Assembly (NCBI GenBank): GCA_027307405.1 | Contig: DAHUXA010000006.1 | Coordinates: 1 to 45,679, forward strand | DNA: 45,679 nt | Direction of reading: 5' to 3' | Origin: Hyphomicrobiales bacterium | Lineage (GTDB): Bacteria > Pseudomonadota > Alphaproteobacteria > Rhizobiales > Xanthobacteraceae | Part shown: in pieces, positions 13,508-38,156 of the stretch | Position numbering within the stretch: position 1 is the first letter of the stretch | Layout: the number at the start of each line of letters is the position of its first letter | Made by a program: the position numbers and the translations under genes | Notes under the pieces: generated by a model | The model's input: the letters and a program-made list of their open reading frames with translations, nothing else | Database searches by the model: none | Told to the model about the DNA's origin: nothing

Positions 13508-14575
13508 TCAGACGTGAAAGATCTTGACGTAATGCTGCTTGATCTCGTCGCTCATTTTCTCAACGGCGGCAGGGTCGTCTTTCATGACTTTGATCTGCTT
13601 GAATGGCGTGCGGCCAGGCTTTTCCTTGGTATCGGGATGCATGGAGCGAAGGCCACCGACATCGATGATCAGCTGCTGGCACTCCGGCGTGAAACTGTAG
13701 GCCGTGAACAGCTTGGCAGCGTTCGGATTCGGGGCAGCCTTGAACATACCGGTTGGACCAACGATGAGCGGCGAGCCCTCGGTGGCATAGACCGGCGCGA
13801 CAGGGCCGCCCTTCTCGCTGATCTGGAAGATGTTGTACTCGTTGCCGTCAGCCATCACCGCGCGCTCGCCGAGCGCAAGCCGCTTCGGCGGATCGGCTGA
13901 CGACTGCACTTGCATGATGTTCTGTGCGGCGAGCTTCTCGAAGAAGCCCCAACCTAGATCGCGCTGCATCTGGTAGGTCGCGGTCATGATGGTGCCGCTG
14001 TAGCCCGGATGCGCCTTGACGATCTTGCCCTTCCATTTTGGATCAAGCAGATCGGCAAAGCTCTTGGGTGCCTCTTCACTTTTTACCAGATTGGTGTTGT
14101 AGGCGATGATGCAAACCCAGACGCGGAAGCTGGCGAACATGCCGTCCGGGTCCTTGTGCTCGGTCGGATAGAACTTGGCGACATCCTCCGGCACATACGC
14201 TTCCAGAAGCCCCTGCTTCTTCCAGACGATGAAATGCGCCGCATCAGACGAGTTTGCGACGTCAACTGCGTGGATATTGCTGCCGTATTCCTGACCGATA
14301 CGCTGAAACACGCGCTCGGCCCCAGTGCGTTCGACGCGTGCGGTGACGCCGGGAAATTTCGCTTCGAAGGATTTCGCGATCTTTTCGGCGAGCGGCAGGT
14401 CGACCGACGTGTACCAGACGACCTTTCCTTCCTTTTTCGCCGCCTCGATCAGTTGCGGCGTGATCGCACTCGCGGGAGGCGCGGCCGACATGACCTTGGT
14501 TGAGAAGGCGGTTCCTGCGGCGAGAGCGCTTGAACCGATCAGTACATCGCGACGTGAAATTCTTGAGTCCCTCAT
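13508..14575 (-). CDS. ABC transporter extracellular solute-binding protein, Tat-exported
   Basis: 355-residue periplasmic binding protein of family 1 (AfuA/FbpA/PotD-like). The N-terminus has a twin-arginine motif, SRRDVLIG, then a hydrophobic stretch, so folded export through Tat is expected. The mature protein begins near ASAITPQLIEAAKKEGKVVWYTS, the usual first strand of iron- or polyamine-type receptors. GGAGG eight bases before 14575 decides the ATG; a GTG at 14590 overlaps that ribosome site and is rejected. No pair of adjacent tyrosines typical of ferric-binding proteins stands out, and the gene context favours an organic acid rather than iron. Confidence 0.86.
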   Translation of the reverse strand: MRDSRISRRDVLIGSSALAAGTAFSTKVMSAAPPASAITPQLIEAAKKEGKVVWYTSVDLPLAEKIAKSFEAKFPGVTARVERTGAERVFQRIGQEYGSNIHAVDVANSSDAAHFIVWKKQGLLEAYVPEDVAKFYPTEHKDPDGMFASFRVWVCIIAYNTNLVKSEEAPKSFADLLDPKWKGKIVKAHPGYSGTIMTATYQMQRDLGWGFFEKLAAQNIMQVQSSADPPKRLALGERAVMADGNEYNIFQISEKGGPVAPVYATEGSPLIVGPTGMFKAAPNPNAAKLFTAYSFTPECQQLIIDVGGLRSMHPDTKEKPGRTPFKQIKVMKDDPAAVEKMSDEIKQHYVKIFHV

Positions 14576-25193: not shown

Positions 25194-25478
25194 ATGTCAC
25201 ATAAGATCACCATGTCGCTGGCAATCGCGGCGGCTCTTAGTTCTGCACTTGCCACCGTCGCTGTCTCGCCGGCGCAAGCAGGTGCGAAAGAGAAGTGTTT
25301 TGGCGTCGCTCTGAAGGGCCAGAACGATTGCGCCGCAGGCGCTGGCACGACCTGCGCGGCAACTTCAAAGGTCGACTACCAGGGCAACGCCTGGAAGCTT
25401 GTCGATCAGGGCTCATGCGTCGCCACGCAGACCCCGCTTGGTCCCGGCTCGCTGACGGCTATCAAACGCCCATCCTGA
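25194..25478 (+). CDS. bufA: Bufferin precursor BufA (DUF2282)
   Basis: 94 residues with a long signal peptide (cleavage near PAQA-GAK, residue 29) and four cysteines at 35, 46, 54 and 75. The segment [16 protein letters not shown] is the DUF2282 landmark. Bufferins are recently described periplasmic copper-sequestering RiPPs whose cysteines are modified by the DUF692 and DUF2063 partners, both encoded directly downstream. GGGAGAA precedes the ATG. It would be exported after modification to buffer copper in the periplasm. Function rests on family and operon context. Confidence 0.88.
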
Positions 25479-25487
25479 TGCGTGATT

Positions 25488-25518
25488 TGGGCGGGAGCCG
25501 ACGACAGGCTTCCGCCCA
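25488..25518 (+). promoter_or_regulatory. Strong intergenic hairpin between bufA and bufB
   Basis: tgggcgggagcc (25488-25499) and ggcttccgccca (25507-25518) pair over 12 bases with one G-U, loop of 7. There is no T-run after it. It starts 9 bases after the bufA stop. It probably protects or processes the mRNA so that precursor is made in excess over the enzymes. Confidence 0.55.
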
Positions 25519-25550
25519 TCCGCCGCGATTATTCGCCCAAGGGAAACGCC

Positions 25551-26444
25551 ATGGCAAAGAGTTCACTGATACAAACCTGCCGTTCGTCCATGCCCAGACC
25601 GGCCGCCGGCGCTGGCCTTAAACCCGAACATTCCGACGATATTTTAGATCAACCTCGCCGGGTCGACTTTTTCGAGATCCACGCCGAAAACTATATGGGC
25701 GACGGCGGTCCCCCGCATTATCTGCTTAAGCGCGTCCGGGCGGACTATCCGCTTTCGATCCACGGCGTGGGTCTTTCCATCGGCGGCACCGCGCCACTCG
25801 ATCGCGAGCATCTCGCGCGTCTCAAGCGCCTCATCGAAATCTATCAGCCGGCGCTGTTCTCGGAGCATCTCGCCTGGTCCACTCACGATGGCGTCTTCCT
25901 CAACGACCTGCTGCCCCTGCCCTACAACGAAATTTCGCTAGCGCACGTTTGCGCCCACGTGAGCCAGGTTCAGGAGACCATCGGCATGAAGATGCTGTTG
26001 GAGAACCCCTCCACTTATGCCGCCTTCGGCGCCAGCTCAATGACCGAGATCGAGTTTCTGTCGGCGGTGGCGCAGCGCACGGGCTGCGGACTACTGCTCG
26101 ACGTCAACAACGTTCATATCTCGGCAGTCAATCACGAGTTCAGTGCCGTGGCCTATATCGACGCATTCCCGATGCAGCGTGTTGATGAATTTCATCTTGC
26201 CGGCTTCGCGGAGGATTGTGACAGCGAGGGCGCGCGGCTTTTGATTGACGATCACGGCCGACCGGTCAGCGATGTCGTATGGGACCTGTATGGCCGAGCG
26301 CTGGCGCGGCCGTGCCTCGCGCCGACGTTGATCGAATGGGACAACAATGTGCCGCCGTTTGCCGCTCTCGCAAGCGAGGTAGCACGCGCGCGCGCACTAA
26401 TGTCTGCGCAGACCGGCGCCACACCTGTCATGCAGGCGGCATAA
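25551..26444 (+). CDS. bufB: Bufferin maturation oxidase BufB (DUF692, MNIO family)
   Basis: 297-residue TIM-barrel protein of the multinuclear non-haem iron oxidase family that includes MbnB of methanobactin synthesis. Probable metal ligands are visible: Glu46 (HAENYM), His71 (SIHGVGLS), His106 (SEHLAWS), Glu151 (LLENPS), Asp184 and His189 (LLLDVNNVH), His215 (DEFHLAG), Glu262 (LIEWD). Such enzymes oxidise cysteines of a precursor to thiooxazole- or oxazolone-type groups. The ATG at 25551 follows GGGAAA; the longer frame from 25482 lies over the intergenic hairpin and is rejected. bufC follows 4 bases later. Confidence 0.9.
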   Translation: MAKSSLIQTCRSSMPRPAAGAGLKPEHSDDILDQPRRVDFFEIHAENYMGDGGPPHYLLKRVRADYPLSIHGVGLSIGGTAPLDREHLARLKRLIEIYQPALFSEHLAWSTHDGVFLNDLLPLPYNEISLAHVCAHVSQVQETIGMKMLLENPSTYAAFGASSMTEIEFLSAVAQRTGCGLLLDVNNVHISAVNHEFSAVAYIDAFPMQRVDEFHLAGFAEDCDSEGARLLIDDHGRPVSDVVWDLYGRALARPCLAPTLIEWDNNVPPFAALASEVARARALMSAQTGATPVMQAA

Positions 26445-26448
26445 CCCA

Positions 26449-27252
26449 ATGATTGCCCTCGCCGTGGAAAATGGATTGGAGCAGCTTCAGAGCGCTTTTG
26501 CTGACGCGATCTTCTTCGATCATGCGCCTATTCCTGCAACCATTCGCACTGGTTCAGGCCGGGCCCACGCTAGCCGTTTCTGCGTCTATCGAAACAACGT
26601 CATCGCCGGCCTGATAAAAGCTGTCGCCGCACGCTATCCGGTCGTGCGAAAGCTGCTCTGGGATGACAGTTTCGACCAGATTGCTCATCTTTACGTCACG
26701 GCGGAGCCACCGCGCTCGCCTGTCTTGCTTGCGTACGGCGACAGCTTTCCACAATTTCTCCGTAGCATCGGGCAAAGCACCTCTGCAGAATATCTCGCCG
26801 ACGTAGCCCAGCTCGAAGCCGCGCGCACGCGCGCCTATCACTCGGCCGATGCAACGCCGATCTCTCGAGATGCCTTCAGCACGTTGGCGCCTGAGCATGT
26901 GCCGGATTTGTGCCTCACGCTGCACCCTTCGATGCAGTTGCTCAAGTCACGATTCCCAGTCGTCAGCATTTGGGAAGCCAATCTGAACGACAGCAACAAT
27001 GCGCTAAGGCACTGGCAACCAGAATGCGCACTGATCGCGCGGCCGCACCTGCAGGTGGAAGTGAAGCGCGTGACGCCAGGCGTCTATGAGTTCTTGTCCG
27101 CACTAGCTGAAGGGTGCACGGTCGGCGAGGCGATCGGTCGTGGCACGGCGAATGCGTCGGACTTCGATCTTGTAGAATGCTTCAGCGCGCTGGTCTCTGC
27201 TGAAATTGTCGTCGATCTGGAGCATTCCGATATTTCGACGGCACGGTCATAG
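26449..27252 (+). CDS. bufC: Bufferin maturation partner BufC (DUF2063)
   Basis: 267 residues. The N-terminal DUF2063 domain has the landmarks RFCVYRNNVIAGLIKAVAAR, then YPVVRKLL, and the acidic motif EYLADVAQLEAARTRAYHS. The C-terminal part is a winged-helix-like domain (GVYEFLSALAEGCTVGEA). In the methanobactin and bufferin systems the MbnC/BufC-type partner docks the precursor leader and stimulates the DUF692 oxidase. It is the last gene of bufABC, and its start lies 4 bases after the bufB stop. Confidence 0.88.
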   Translation: MIALAVENGLEQLQSAFADAIFFDHAPIPATIRTGSGRAHASRFCVYRNNVIAGLIKAVAARYPVVRKLLWDDSFDQIAHLYVTAEPPRSPVLLAYGDSFPQFLRSIGQSTSAEYLADVAQLEAARTRAYHSADATPISRDAFSTLAPEHVPDLCLTLHPSMQLLKSRFPVVSIWEANLNDSNNALRHWQPECALIARPHLQVEVKRVTPGVYEFLSALAEGCTVGEAIGRGTANASDFDLVECFSALVSAEIVVDLEHSDISTARS

Positions 27253-36507: not shown

Positions 36508-36654
36508 ATGACCAAGGTTCTTAGCGCCTCGAAGGAAGAAAACCTCCTCGCTTACGAAGTATCCGATGAGGCACTGGAAGCTGCGGGAGGGACCGAAATC
36601 GCAGGGAACTACACGCTCGCTGCCTGTACTGGCCTGTCTGTTTGCCCCGGCTGA
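36508..36654 (+). CDS. Small RiPP-like peptide ending CTGLSVCPG
   Basis: 48 residues. AGGAG lies 7 bases before the ATG, so translation is well supported. Residues 11-28 (EENLLAYEVSDEALEAAGG) are acidic and end in Gly-Gly, like leader peptides of the nitrile-hydratase/Nif11 type whose cores are cut after the double glycine. The remaining 20 residues end YTLAACTGLSVCPG with two Cys five residues apart (40 and 46). A homologue with the same end is at 37864-38019 on the other strand. No lanthionine synthetase, YcaO, radical SAM or DUF692 gene is adjacent. A 59-residue gene follows 37 bases later. Function unknown. Confidence 0.75.
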   Translation: MTKVLSASKEENLLAYEVSDEALEAAGGTEIAGNYTLAACTGLSVCPG

Positions 36655-36691
36655 TCATCCAATTGATCAACTCCAAAGATTGGAGGCACCC

Positions 36692-36871
36692 GTGTCAAAC
36701 AGCTTCCTGAACTGGACCAGCCGGGTCGCGATCGAAGCACGGATAGCGCAATGGCGTCGCCCCCAAGACTGGAATGAGTTGACGATACCAGGTGATGATC
36801 ACCTGCCTTTCGGCAAGACCGAAGCAAAGGCAAAGGCTGCGAGGTGGCTCTGGCAGAGTTATCTCATCTGA
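36692..36871 (+). CDS. Small basic protein downstream of the peptide gene (GTG start)
   Basis: 59 residues starting at GTG 36692, with TGGAGG five bases before it; the longer frame from 36566 overlaps the peptide gene in another reading and lacks such a site. The sequence is soluble, with three Trp in RIAQWRRPQDWNEL and RWLWQSYLI and the segment LPFGKTEAKAKAAR. No family recognised. Shared direction, a 37-base gap and a joint terminator at 36881 make it the second gene of the peptide operon. Confidence 0.6.
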   Translation: MSNSFLNWTSRVAIEARIAQWRRPQDWNELTIPGDDHLPFGKTEAKAKAARWLWQSYLI

Positions 36872-36880
36872 CAAAAAGCA

Positions 36881-36914
36881 GAACCGCGCCTTTGACAGGG
36901 CGCGGCTCTTTTTT
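36881..36914 (+). terminator. Rho-independent terminator of the peptide operon
   Basis: ccgcgcc (36884-36890) and ggcgcgg (36899-36905) form a 7-bp stem with an 8-base loop, followed by CTCTTTTTT. It lies 10 bases after the 59-residue gene and ends just before the convergent lipoprotein gene. Confidence 0.8.
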
Positions 36915-36922
36915 GCTATGGA

Positions 36923-37183
36923 TCAGCAGCGCACGTAGTGACGACGGTGGTGCCGCCGATAATAGCACCAGCCTGGTCTCGTAGCGTCGGCGATTATTGC
37001 GCCAGCAGCAGCGCCAATCAGTCCGCCTGCAACCGCAGCGCCGGCCGTGCCGCCAGCCAGACCGCCGATAAGCGCGCCGCTGCCTCCACCAATCAATGCG
37101 CCGCCCAGAACGCGATCTTGCCGGCTATTCGCACACCCAGAAAGTACCAACGCCATCACAGCCACGACGAGTGCGTTGCGCAT
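36923..37183 (-). CDS. Small glycine-zipper lipoprotein
   Basis: 86 residues. The lipobox LSGC (Cys at about 17) follows a hydrophobic signal, so an outer- or inner-membrane lipoprotein is expected. The centre is a glycine-zipper repeat (GGALIGGGSGALIGGLAGG) that forms close-packed helices in membranes. The end is rich in Arg, His and Tyr with two Cys (WCYYRRHH ... VRC). The ATG at 37183 is preceded by AAGGA. Function unknown; osmotic or envelope stress lipoproteins look similar. Confidence 0.8.
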   Translation of the reverse strand: MRNALVVAVMALVLSGCANSRQDRVLGGALIGGGSGALIGGLAGGTAGAAVAGGLIGAAAGAIIADATRPGWCYYRRHHRRHYVRC

Positions 37184-37385
37184 CTGCTTTCCTTTCAGAT
37201 TGATATCCACCCGCCGCTAGAGGCTGATTTGCTTTCCGGCGTGGCAGCCCATGGATGATCAATGCAGCCCCAACGATCTTGGGTCGAGAAATAGCGTAAT
37301 CCGATCCCGCCCGGAGGCAGAACAATACCATTGCTGCTTGGGTGTGCTCGACTCTTGGCCGTCGTGGCAATCAAGTCACAAGAGG

Positions 37386-37664
37386 TTATACCTCCACGCC
37401 GGCGCGCGCTTCGGGGTGCTGATCGAGGAAATGCCGCAACGCCATGAAAAGCTCCTGCGCATGCCTGACACGGCCGGCATCAAGTGCCTTGTGGATGTCC
37501 TCAATGATCATGGTCCGGATCTTTTCGCCACCATGGGGCTGCTTCAGCAGATAGTCCGCTAAGGCGGTGGCTGCGATTTCAGGAATGTGCTCGTGCTCGC
37601 TGATGGCGGCGACTTCATCTTTGTCCAGTCCGCAAAAGGCGATGCAATCCTCCAAAGAGATCAT
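37386..37664 (-). CDS. Conserved helical protein of unknown function under a FixK-type promoter
   Basis: 92 residues, predicted largely helical. It begins MISLEDCIAFCGLDKDEVAAI and has KIRTMIIEDIHKALDAG and ELFMALRHFLDQHPEA. I recall close relatives in Bradyrhizobiaceae as conserved hypotheticals. GGAGG five bases before 37664 decides the ATG over one at 37715. Upstream at 37721-37773 lies a segment duplicated in front of the peptide gene at 38019, with a FixK/FNR-like box 83 bases before this start. That suggests expression at low oxygen with the peptide. Confidence 0.75.
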   Translation of the reverse strand: MISLEDCIAFCGLDKDEVAAISEHEHIPEIAATALADYLLKQPHGGEKIRTMIIEDIHKALDAGRVRHAQELFMALRHFLDQHPEARAGVEV

Positions 37665-37720
37665 AGCATCCTCCAATGCCCGTTTATCGGGCCAGGCCGC
37701 ATGCACATTACTCAAAAAAA

Positions 37721-37773
37721 GCAGATCATCTCAATCAGCATGCGTAATGATGCAGGTCAATTGGTCAGCGGTG
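37721..37773 (-). promoter_or_regulatory. Promoter repeat copy A with FNR/FixK-like box (37747-37760)
   Basis: 53 bases align without gaps to 38062-38114 with 42 identical positions. On the minus strand the core reads TTGACCTGCATCAT, one mismatch from the FixK2 consensus TTG(A/C)-N6-(T/G)CAA. The conserved GATTGAGATGATC that follows in both copies could hold the -10 region. Downstream gene: the 92-residue protein at 37664. Confidence 0.55.
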
Positions 37774-37820
37774 CTGTACGATCGCGCCAACCGGACGTGG
37801 TTGTTTCTCCTGAAACGGAA

Positions 37821-37840
37821 AGACCGCCTCGCGGCGGTCT
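37821..37840 (-). terminator. Hairpin after the second peptide gene
   Basis: Perfect 8-bp stem agaccgcc-tcgc-ggcggtct. On the minus strand it is followed by TTTCC, a short T-run. It lies 23 bases after the peptide stop and separates that gene from the next promoter. Confidence 0.6.
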
Positions 37841-37863
37841 CTCCGAAACCGATCGGGTGCAGT

Positions 37864-38019
37864 TCAGCCCGGACATACAGACAGGCCGCTGCAAGCCCCT
37901 AGGGTGAAGTTTGCTTTCTCTTTCGCCGAGCCCGCTGCGAGCTCCAAGGCCTCATCGCAAACTTCCAAAGCAAGGATCTCTTCGTCAGTCAGGTCATGTG
38001 TTATCGTCATGTTCTTCAT
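37864..38019 (-). CDS. Small RiPP-like peptide ending CSGLSVCPG
   Basis: 51 residues. The N-terminal part has LTDEEILALEVCDEALELAAG, acidic and helical like the leader of the first peptide (EENLLAYEVSDEALEAAGG). The end NFTLGACSGLSVCPG differs from its homologue at only a few positions, keeping both Cys five apart (43 and 49) and the PG terminus. AAGG nine bases upstream supports the ATG at 38019. A perfect TTGAT-N4-ATCAA box lies 69 bases before the start. Its own terminator follows. No modifying enzyme is adjacent. Possible RiPP, secreted signal or metal-binding peptide; none proven. Confidence 0.75.
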   Translation of the reverse strand: MKNMTITHDLTDEEILALEVCDEALELAAGSAKEKANFTLGACSGLSVCPG

Positions 38020-38061
38020 GGCAGTGAACCTTCTATTTCTTATTCTTGTTGCATTCGAAAA

Positions 38062-38114
38062 GTGGATCATCTCAATCGTCAGGCGCATTGATGCTGATCA
38101 ATGGGTCAGCGATG
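38062..38114 (-). promoter_or_regulatory. Promoter repeat copy B with perfect FixK/FNR box (38088-38101)
   Basis: TTGATCAGCATCAA on the minus strand matches the anaerobox TTGAT-N4-ATCAA exactly and is palindromic at its ends. Its centre is 75 bases before the peptide start, which suits class II activation at -41.5 with a start of transcription near 38053. The surrounding 53 bases are the second copy of the repeat at 37721-37773. Confidence 0.65.
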
Positions 38115-38156
38115 ATGATATAGTTTCGTGTAGCTTTGCTATGTGGGAACATCCAC

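Follow-up and report, generated by a model that had tools for sequence, protein, structure and literature searches.

Two small peptide genes of a Xanthobacteraceae bacterium as probable dispersed precursors of a class II lanthipeptide synthetase

Two short genes in the window, by which we mean the whole 45,679-nucleotide stretch of Hyphomicrobiales DNA analyzed here, most probably encode class II lanthipeptide precursors. In the reading that we favor, with a probability of roughly 0.87, both peptides are dispersed substrates of a single LanM synthetase encoded on another contig (C430), which would act on them in trans and form two (methyl)lanthionine rings in each. An earlier note on this DNA had proposed a pair of RiPP precursors, and that proposal is now strongly supported by a conserved leader, a variable core with Cys, Thr, and Ser, and a LanM gene beside a close paralogue. 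The note had mentioned neither the eight other copies of the family, nor the LanM on another contig, nor a 59-residue open reading frame (ORF) behind the first peptide gene.

Both genes lie where they had originally been placed, on opposite strands: peptide 1 at 36508..36654 (+ strand, stop included; 48 residues, MTKVLSASKEENLLAYEVSDEALEAAGGTEIAGNYTLAACTGLSVCPG) and peptide 2 at 37864..38019 (− strand; 51 residues, MKNMTITHDLTDEEILALEVCDEALELAAGSAKEKANFTLGACSGLSVCPG), as read from the ORFs and recovered by a search of the genome itself, with the nearer contig end at least 7.6 kb away. Both have an acidic leader and terminate in CxGLSVCPG, as first noticed, and their resemblance is beyond chance (E 9.5e-10 with peptide 1 as the query in its own genome). 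The leader of peptide 1 is predicted to extend to ...EALEAAGG, leaving the core TEIAGNYTLAACTGLSVCPG, and that of peptide 2 to ...EALELAAG, leaving SAKEKANFTLGACSGLSVCPG; the predicted rings are T36-C40 and T41-C46 in peptide 1, with S44 as an alternative donor, and T39-C43 and S44-C49 in peptide 2. Purine-rich sequences ahead of the two starts (AGGAG and AGAAGG) could be the ribosome sites described before. Terminator-like hairpins were also located, one behind peptide 2 (37823..37835, − strand) and one with a T tail (36884..36905, + strand) that follows peptide 1 only after the 59-residue ORF; a hairpin scan found seven terminator-like sites, against a mean of 1.8 in shuffles.

This second small ORF (36692..36871, + strand, GTG start) begins 37 bases behind peptide 1 and has no Pfam or NCBIfam match. 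Peptide 1 and the ORF are duplicated as a unit on contig C452, with 76% DNA identity over 342 bases (second ORF copy at L014, 6262-6438, − strand), and the ORF was present in only one of 23 genomes searched, its own, at two places. Its copies differ by a dN of 0.19 and a dS of 0.97, which indicates that it evolves as a coding sequence; it is possibly a partner or immunity protein.

When queried with peptide 1 (E up to 10), the genome that encodes it (G000; 4.10 Mb in 459 contigs, 93% complete) yielded ten family matches on nine contigs, both window genes included. The other eight places matched at E values up to 0.25, the weakest being on C288, and the same ten were recovered by a ten-row profile and by a 36-row profile. 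Nine of these copies look intact, and one (L020 on C66, 17944-18174, − strand) is degenerate, without the start of the leader and the last Cys. Across 391 genomes of the bacterial family, 43 precursor matches were obtained; six without a locus were left unread. From these matches and those in G000 and the other relatives, 37 distinct peptides were read, plus one from G126. The 36-row alignment omits the degenerate C66 copy and one intact G273 peptide, and the latter is included in the Cys, Ser/Thr, and two-ring counts over 37 peptides given below.

Members of the family share the leader ..EVSDEALEAAAG (in aligned form ..EILxYEVSDEALEAAAG), followed by tails of varied Cys, Ser, and Thr that run from the window type, (Y/F)TLxxC(S/T)GLSVCPG, to others such as STPTAAGAAMSFPNAPTVSILVICCGNG. 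Mean pairwise identity among 36 peptides was 56% for the last 20 leader residues vs 29% for the cores. Every core Cys had a Ser or Thr 2–7 residues upstream (80/80 in 37 peptides, vs 64% in shuffled cores, with 0 of 1000 shuffles reaching this value), and the same was found for 14 non-redundant cores (34/34 vs 66%, 0 of 5000). Ser and Thr together were at least as numerous as Cys in all 37 cores, so that each peptide joins a leader to a ring-capable core, as a LanA does, and 23 of the 37 displayed the two-ring pattern T-x3-C-[S/T]-x3-5-C.

Neither window peptide matched a Pfam or NCBIfam family up to E 10, a range in which HMMER filters drop most matches above ~0.1. The likeness to Nif11/nitrile-hydratase leaders that had been seen in the earlier note is not confirmed. 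Six further members searched against NCBIfam gave no credible family either (for one of them, two matches at E 0.07-0.15 fell well short of the cut-offs), and the literature searched held no described function, consistent with what had been stated.

A broader spread of the family was considered and rejected. One of 59 other relatives carries it, and in an order-wide profile search, none of 396 other genomes matched the 36-row profile among the candidates scored (at most 16 from a first look per listed genome), leaving precursors in 1/397 genomes, its own, with LanM in 7/397. A scan of a genome-contig collection gave at least six precursor loci. A phage origin was considered and rejected, as none of 69 pattern matches in viral contigs was a relative.

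The LanM gene was found through an all-against-all neighborhood comparison, in which an ORF of ~1100 residues where complete stood beside precursors in 13 loci, a count that includes some contigs fetched twice. On C430, this open frame (C430:14694-17939) diverges from a precursor frame (14234-14413) at a distance of ~0.3 kb, and the core of that precursor ends in FTLGACTGLSVCDG, nearly equal to the ends of the window peptides. The product is a full-length class II enzyme (TIGR03897, 774 bits against a cut-off of 304; PF13575 and PF05147) and the only PF13575 match of the genome at E ≤ 1e-10. The earlier statement on the lack of a neighboring maturation enzyme is true of the surroundings of both genes, not of the genome. 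Contigs C426 and C430 are taken as one organism on the basis of binning; their tetranucleotide correlation (0.968) is non-discriminating, as C426 reaches 0.948-0.981 with contigs of other genomes.

In CylM, phosphorylation has been assigned to K274, D347, H349, N352, and D364, and elimination to D252, H254, R506, and T512 (PMC4550811). All of these residues of CylM (5dzt) are matched in the LanM alignment (D252/H254, K274, D347/H349/N352, D364, R506/T512, positions counted by hand), so that the genome encoding the precursors also encodes a LanM with intact dehydratase and cyclase residues. The enzyme belongs to the same family as LicM2 (6st5) and CylM and has the same catalytic residues, but its zinc-site motifs read WCHG...LCCG, i.e., CCG where LicM2 and CylM have CHG. 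This CCG site was observed in 13 of 13 precursor-linked LanMs and also in six of the seven other LanMs of the bacterial family, and is thus not specific to the precursor-linked group. Close relatives of the enzyme on plasmids were sought and dismissed: all 28 records fell under 60% identity, the top-ranked being at 30.6% (Nostoc) and the maximum, from Azospirillum, at 33.0% across 40% of the query.

We next consider how precursors and LanM are associated across the bacterial family. Among the 391 genomes, 13 had precursors (E ≤ 0.001), 19 had LanM (E ≤ 1e-10), and 12 had both. LanM was present in 12 of 13 precursor carriers vs 7 of 378 other genomes (Fisher p 3e-17, a value that ignores kinship; the carriers fall in four of 47 genera). 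The sole carrier without a LanM match, G299, is 60% complete. No precursor was called in seven LanM genomes. One of these, G126, does have a weak precursor next to its LanM, and the remaining six encode LanMs that are 27-33% identical to that of C430 and lie outside its group. In a midpoint-rooted tree, for which G676 was left out of 25 sequences, the 13 precursor-linked LanMs form one side of a branch with support 100/99, against 11 others, with the places of G643, G250, G159, and G101 unsure because of their long branches. Identity to the C430 enzyme within the group is 58-73% (rounded down), except for G159 (36%). Separately, the LanM and precursor of G337 sit between two integrase genes (L100, G337:C46, 4339-17733), which suggests a mobile island.

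This association also bears on two other explanations. The peptides might be unmodified small proteins with another role, their resemblance to LanM-adjacent genes being incidental; they match no curated family and have no known product, as such proteins might, yet the contrast between leader and core, the spacing of Cys and Ser/Thr, and the association with a single LanM group make this very improbable. We give an equally low probability to maturation by the MbnB (DUF692)/DUF2063 pair of a bufferin-type operon 10 kb away, which had been offered as a speculative partner. That operon is real (25194-27252, + strand; DUF2282, MbnB/DUF692, DUF2063), it constitutes a RiPP-type operon within the same window, and enzymes of the MbnB/DUF2063 type act on Cys-containing precursors. 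However, it has a DUF2282 precursor of its own, the window peptides have no Pfam match, to DUF2282 or otherwise, and family members stand beside LanM in 10 of 13 carrier genomes in addition to co-occurring with it. Since LanM adjoins close paralogues of the window peptides, it takes the place of the bufferin operon as the proposed partner.

If the LanM of C430 is the maturation enzyme, it would have to reach most of its substrates at a distance. A LanM match was within 5 kb of ten of the 43 precursor matches, and the other 33 were on contigs devoid of one, unlike in other class II lanthipeptide systems such as those of LicM2 and CylM. The genome studied here has one LanM and ten precursor matches on nine contigs, only one of them adjacent, in a fragmented assembly that gives no inter-contig distances. 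These dispersal figures could be inflated by contig breaks, and in G341 and G273 the LanM is on a contig under 8 kb. In G061, however, a precursor (a weak match, E 8e-4) lies 40 kb into the 79-kb contig C107 and LanM on C9; its tail nearly equals that of the C288 copy.

There is no guarantee that an orphan precursor is expressed or modified, and the window genes could be relics or silent duplicates of the LanM-adjacent precursor, no longer matured, with product made from the C430 copy alone. The degenerate C66 copy demonstrates that at least one member has decayed, neither window gene is near LanM, and a promoter scan found no sigma-70-like promoter (mean of 0.9 in shuffles). Decay of the window genes is nonetheless unlikely, though less so than the two explanations above, given a dN/dS of ~0.23 for peptide 1 against the C452 copy and likewise ~0.23 for peptide 2 against the C430 copy (and ~0.05 between the C430 and G341 precursors), all from short sequences with few sites. 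Plausible ribosome sites are present, the predicted ring residues are kept, a perfect FNR/FixK-type box precedes peptide 2, and copies away from LanM recur in other genomes (the 33 of 43 matches).

Under the favored reading of LanM acting in trans, the enzyme would bind the acidic leader (..EVSDEALEAAAG), phosphorylate and then eliminate core Thr and Ser, and add the cysteines, thereby closing two neighboring (methyl)lanthionine rings in the way that ProcM matures prochlorosins. A protease would then remove the leader near the GG/AG site, and the product would leave through a peptidase-less ABC exporter encoded near LanM. The corresponding cluster (L015 on C430, 6031-12009, + strand) comprises an ABC exporter, SPFH, coiled-coil-like, and ParA-like genes, and two DUF697 genes. 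Its exporter scores 329 bits with TIGR01194, the model for cyclic peptide export (the cut-off being 286), and has no peptidase domain in Pfam. ABC exporter, SPFH, coiled-coil-like, and DUF697 genes occur near LanM in G000, G034, G227, G214, and G061, and this set is a possible new export platform. As a fixed part of the system it was rejected, being present in five of 13 LanM loci only: those of G273, G186, G252, and G341 lie on short contigs, and the set is absent from the stretches fetched around LanM in G337, G396, G126, and G159, where the neighbors scanned included no peptidase-domain transporter (10 ORFs compared with Pfam and six with NCBIfam, one shared). Prochlorosin-like systems typically remove the leader with LanT, a bifunctional C39 peptidase-transporter. 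The C39 peptidase (PF03412) had no match in G000, G034, G214, or G227, matches above the curated cut-off in G061, G252, and G337, and one below it in G396; for G000, the absence is provisional, as the genome is 93% complete.

The closest likeness is to the prochlorosins, for which the literature describes one LanM (ProcM) with a CCG zinc motif and numerous precursors that share a leader, vary in the core, and in many cases are encoded far from the LanM gene (PMC10027976, PMC7268733, PMC10783134, PMC11667668). As in ProcA/ProcM of Prochlorococcus MIT9313 and SyncA/SyncM of Synechococcus, one CCG LanM is accompanied here by many scattered precursors with one leader, a comparison drawn from literature descriptions of ProcM. 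The present system differs in its host, an alphaproteobacterium (Hyphomicrobiales/Xanthobacteraceae), in having about ten copies rather than 30-80, in the single two-ring pattern kept by 23 of 37 cores, in the lack of a Nif11 leader match (Pfam and NCBIfam, up to E 10), and in an exporter without a peptidase domain, with no C39 found in its own genome. Because a Nif11 leader and a C39 transporter were sought and not found, we liken the system to the prochlorosins yet do not class it as a member.

The arrangement of many precursors and one enzyme is known mainly from marine cyanobacteria, and a 2023 paper regards prochlorosin-like clusters, in marine cyanobacteria, as the sole example to date of a CCG LanM that is highly promiscuous and serves diverse precursors (PMC10027976); the same paper adds freshwater cyanobacteria and notes CCG LanMs in archaea. 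According to a 2025 review, mining of genomes has pointed to homologous clusters in members of the alpha- and gamma-proteobacteria (PMC12328550, citing Arias-Orozco 2021), so that the kind is not new to the phylum. Our literature searches returned no paper on a Bradyrhizobium lanthipeptide LanM, none for peatland, and, for Xanthobacteraceae lanthipeptides, two papers, the one listed being on another subject by its title and abstract.

Tentatively, and with distinctly less than even confidence, we suggest that peat and soil Xanthobacteraceae may hold a combinatorial lanthipeptide repertoire outside cyanobacteria. It would consist of one LanM and fast-changing, independently placed precursors, each separately controlled (in one case through an FNR/FixK-type box), a leader outside Pfam and NCBIfam, a non-C39 leader protease, a new ABC/SPFH/coiled-coil/DUF697 export set, and, in the 59-residue ORF duplicated with peptide 1, a dedicated partner or immunity protein. 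Precursors far from the enzyme escape mining restricted to the surroundings of LanC proteins, for which one described search used a limit of seven genes (PMC7268733). As an alphaproteobacterial case, the family is concrete and open to testing; its leader could seed new search models, and its members are a natural set in which to ask what purpose scattered lanthipeptides serve, a question that also stands for prochlorosins (PMC10783134). Antagonism and signaling are functions considered for the products.

Control by oxygen is suggested for peptide 2. A palindrome, TTGATGCTGATCAA, at 38088..38101, 68 bases ahead of the start of peptide 2, is a perfect match to TTGAT-N4-ATCAA, an FNR/FixK-type box. 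It is the sole perfect match in the window, vs a mean of 0.04 in shuffles (four of 100-200 shuffles had one), and because of this box peptide 2 may be made under low oxygen. A box common to the whole precursor family is not supported: across 36 upstream regions, two of them shorter than 250 bases, the perfect box precedes peptide 2 alone, and the only further case is a one-mismatch box upstream of the C51 precursor, in a background where 43 of 3000 random 250-base stretches have a box with at most one mismatch. Peptide 2 also adjoins a 92-residue ORF (37386-37661, − strand) with only sub-threshold family matches in Pfam and NCBIfam. By eye, the region upstream of this ORF (37715-37785) resembles that upstream of peptide 2 (~38060-38115), as if the promoter region of one had been copied to the other.
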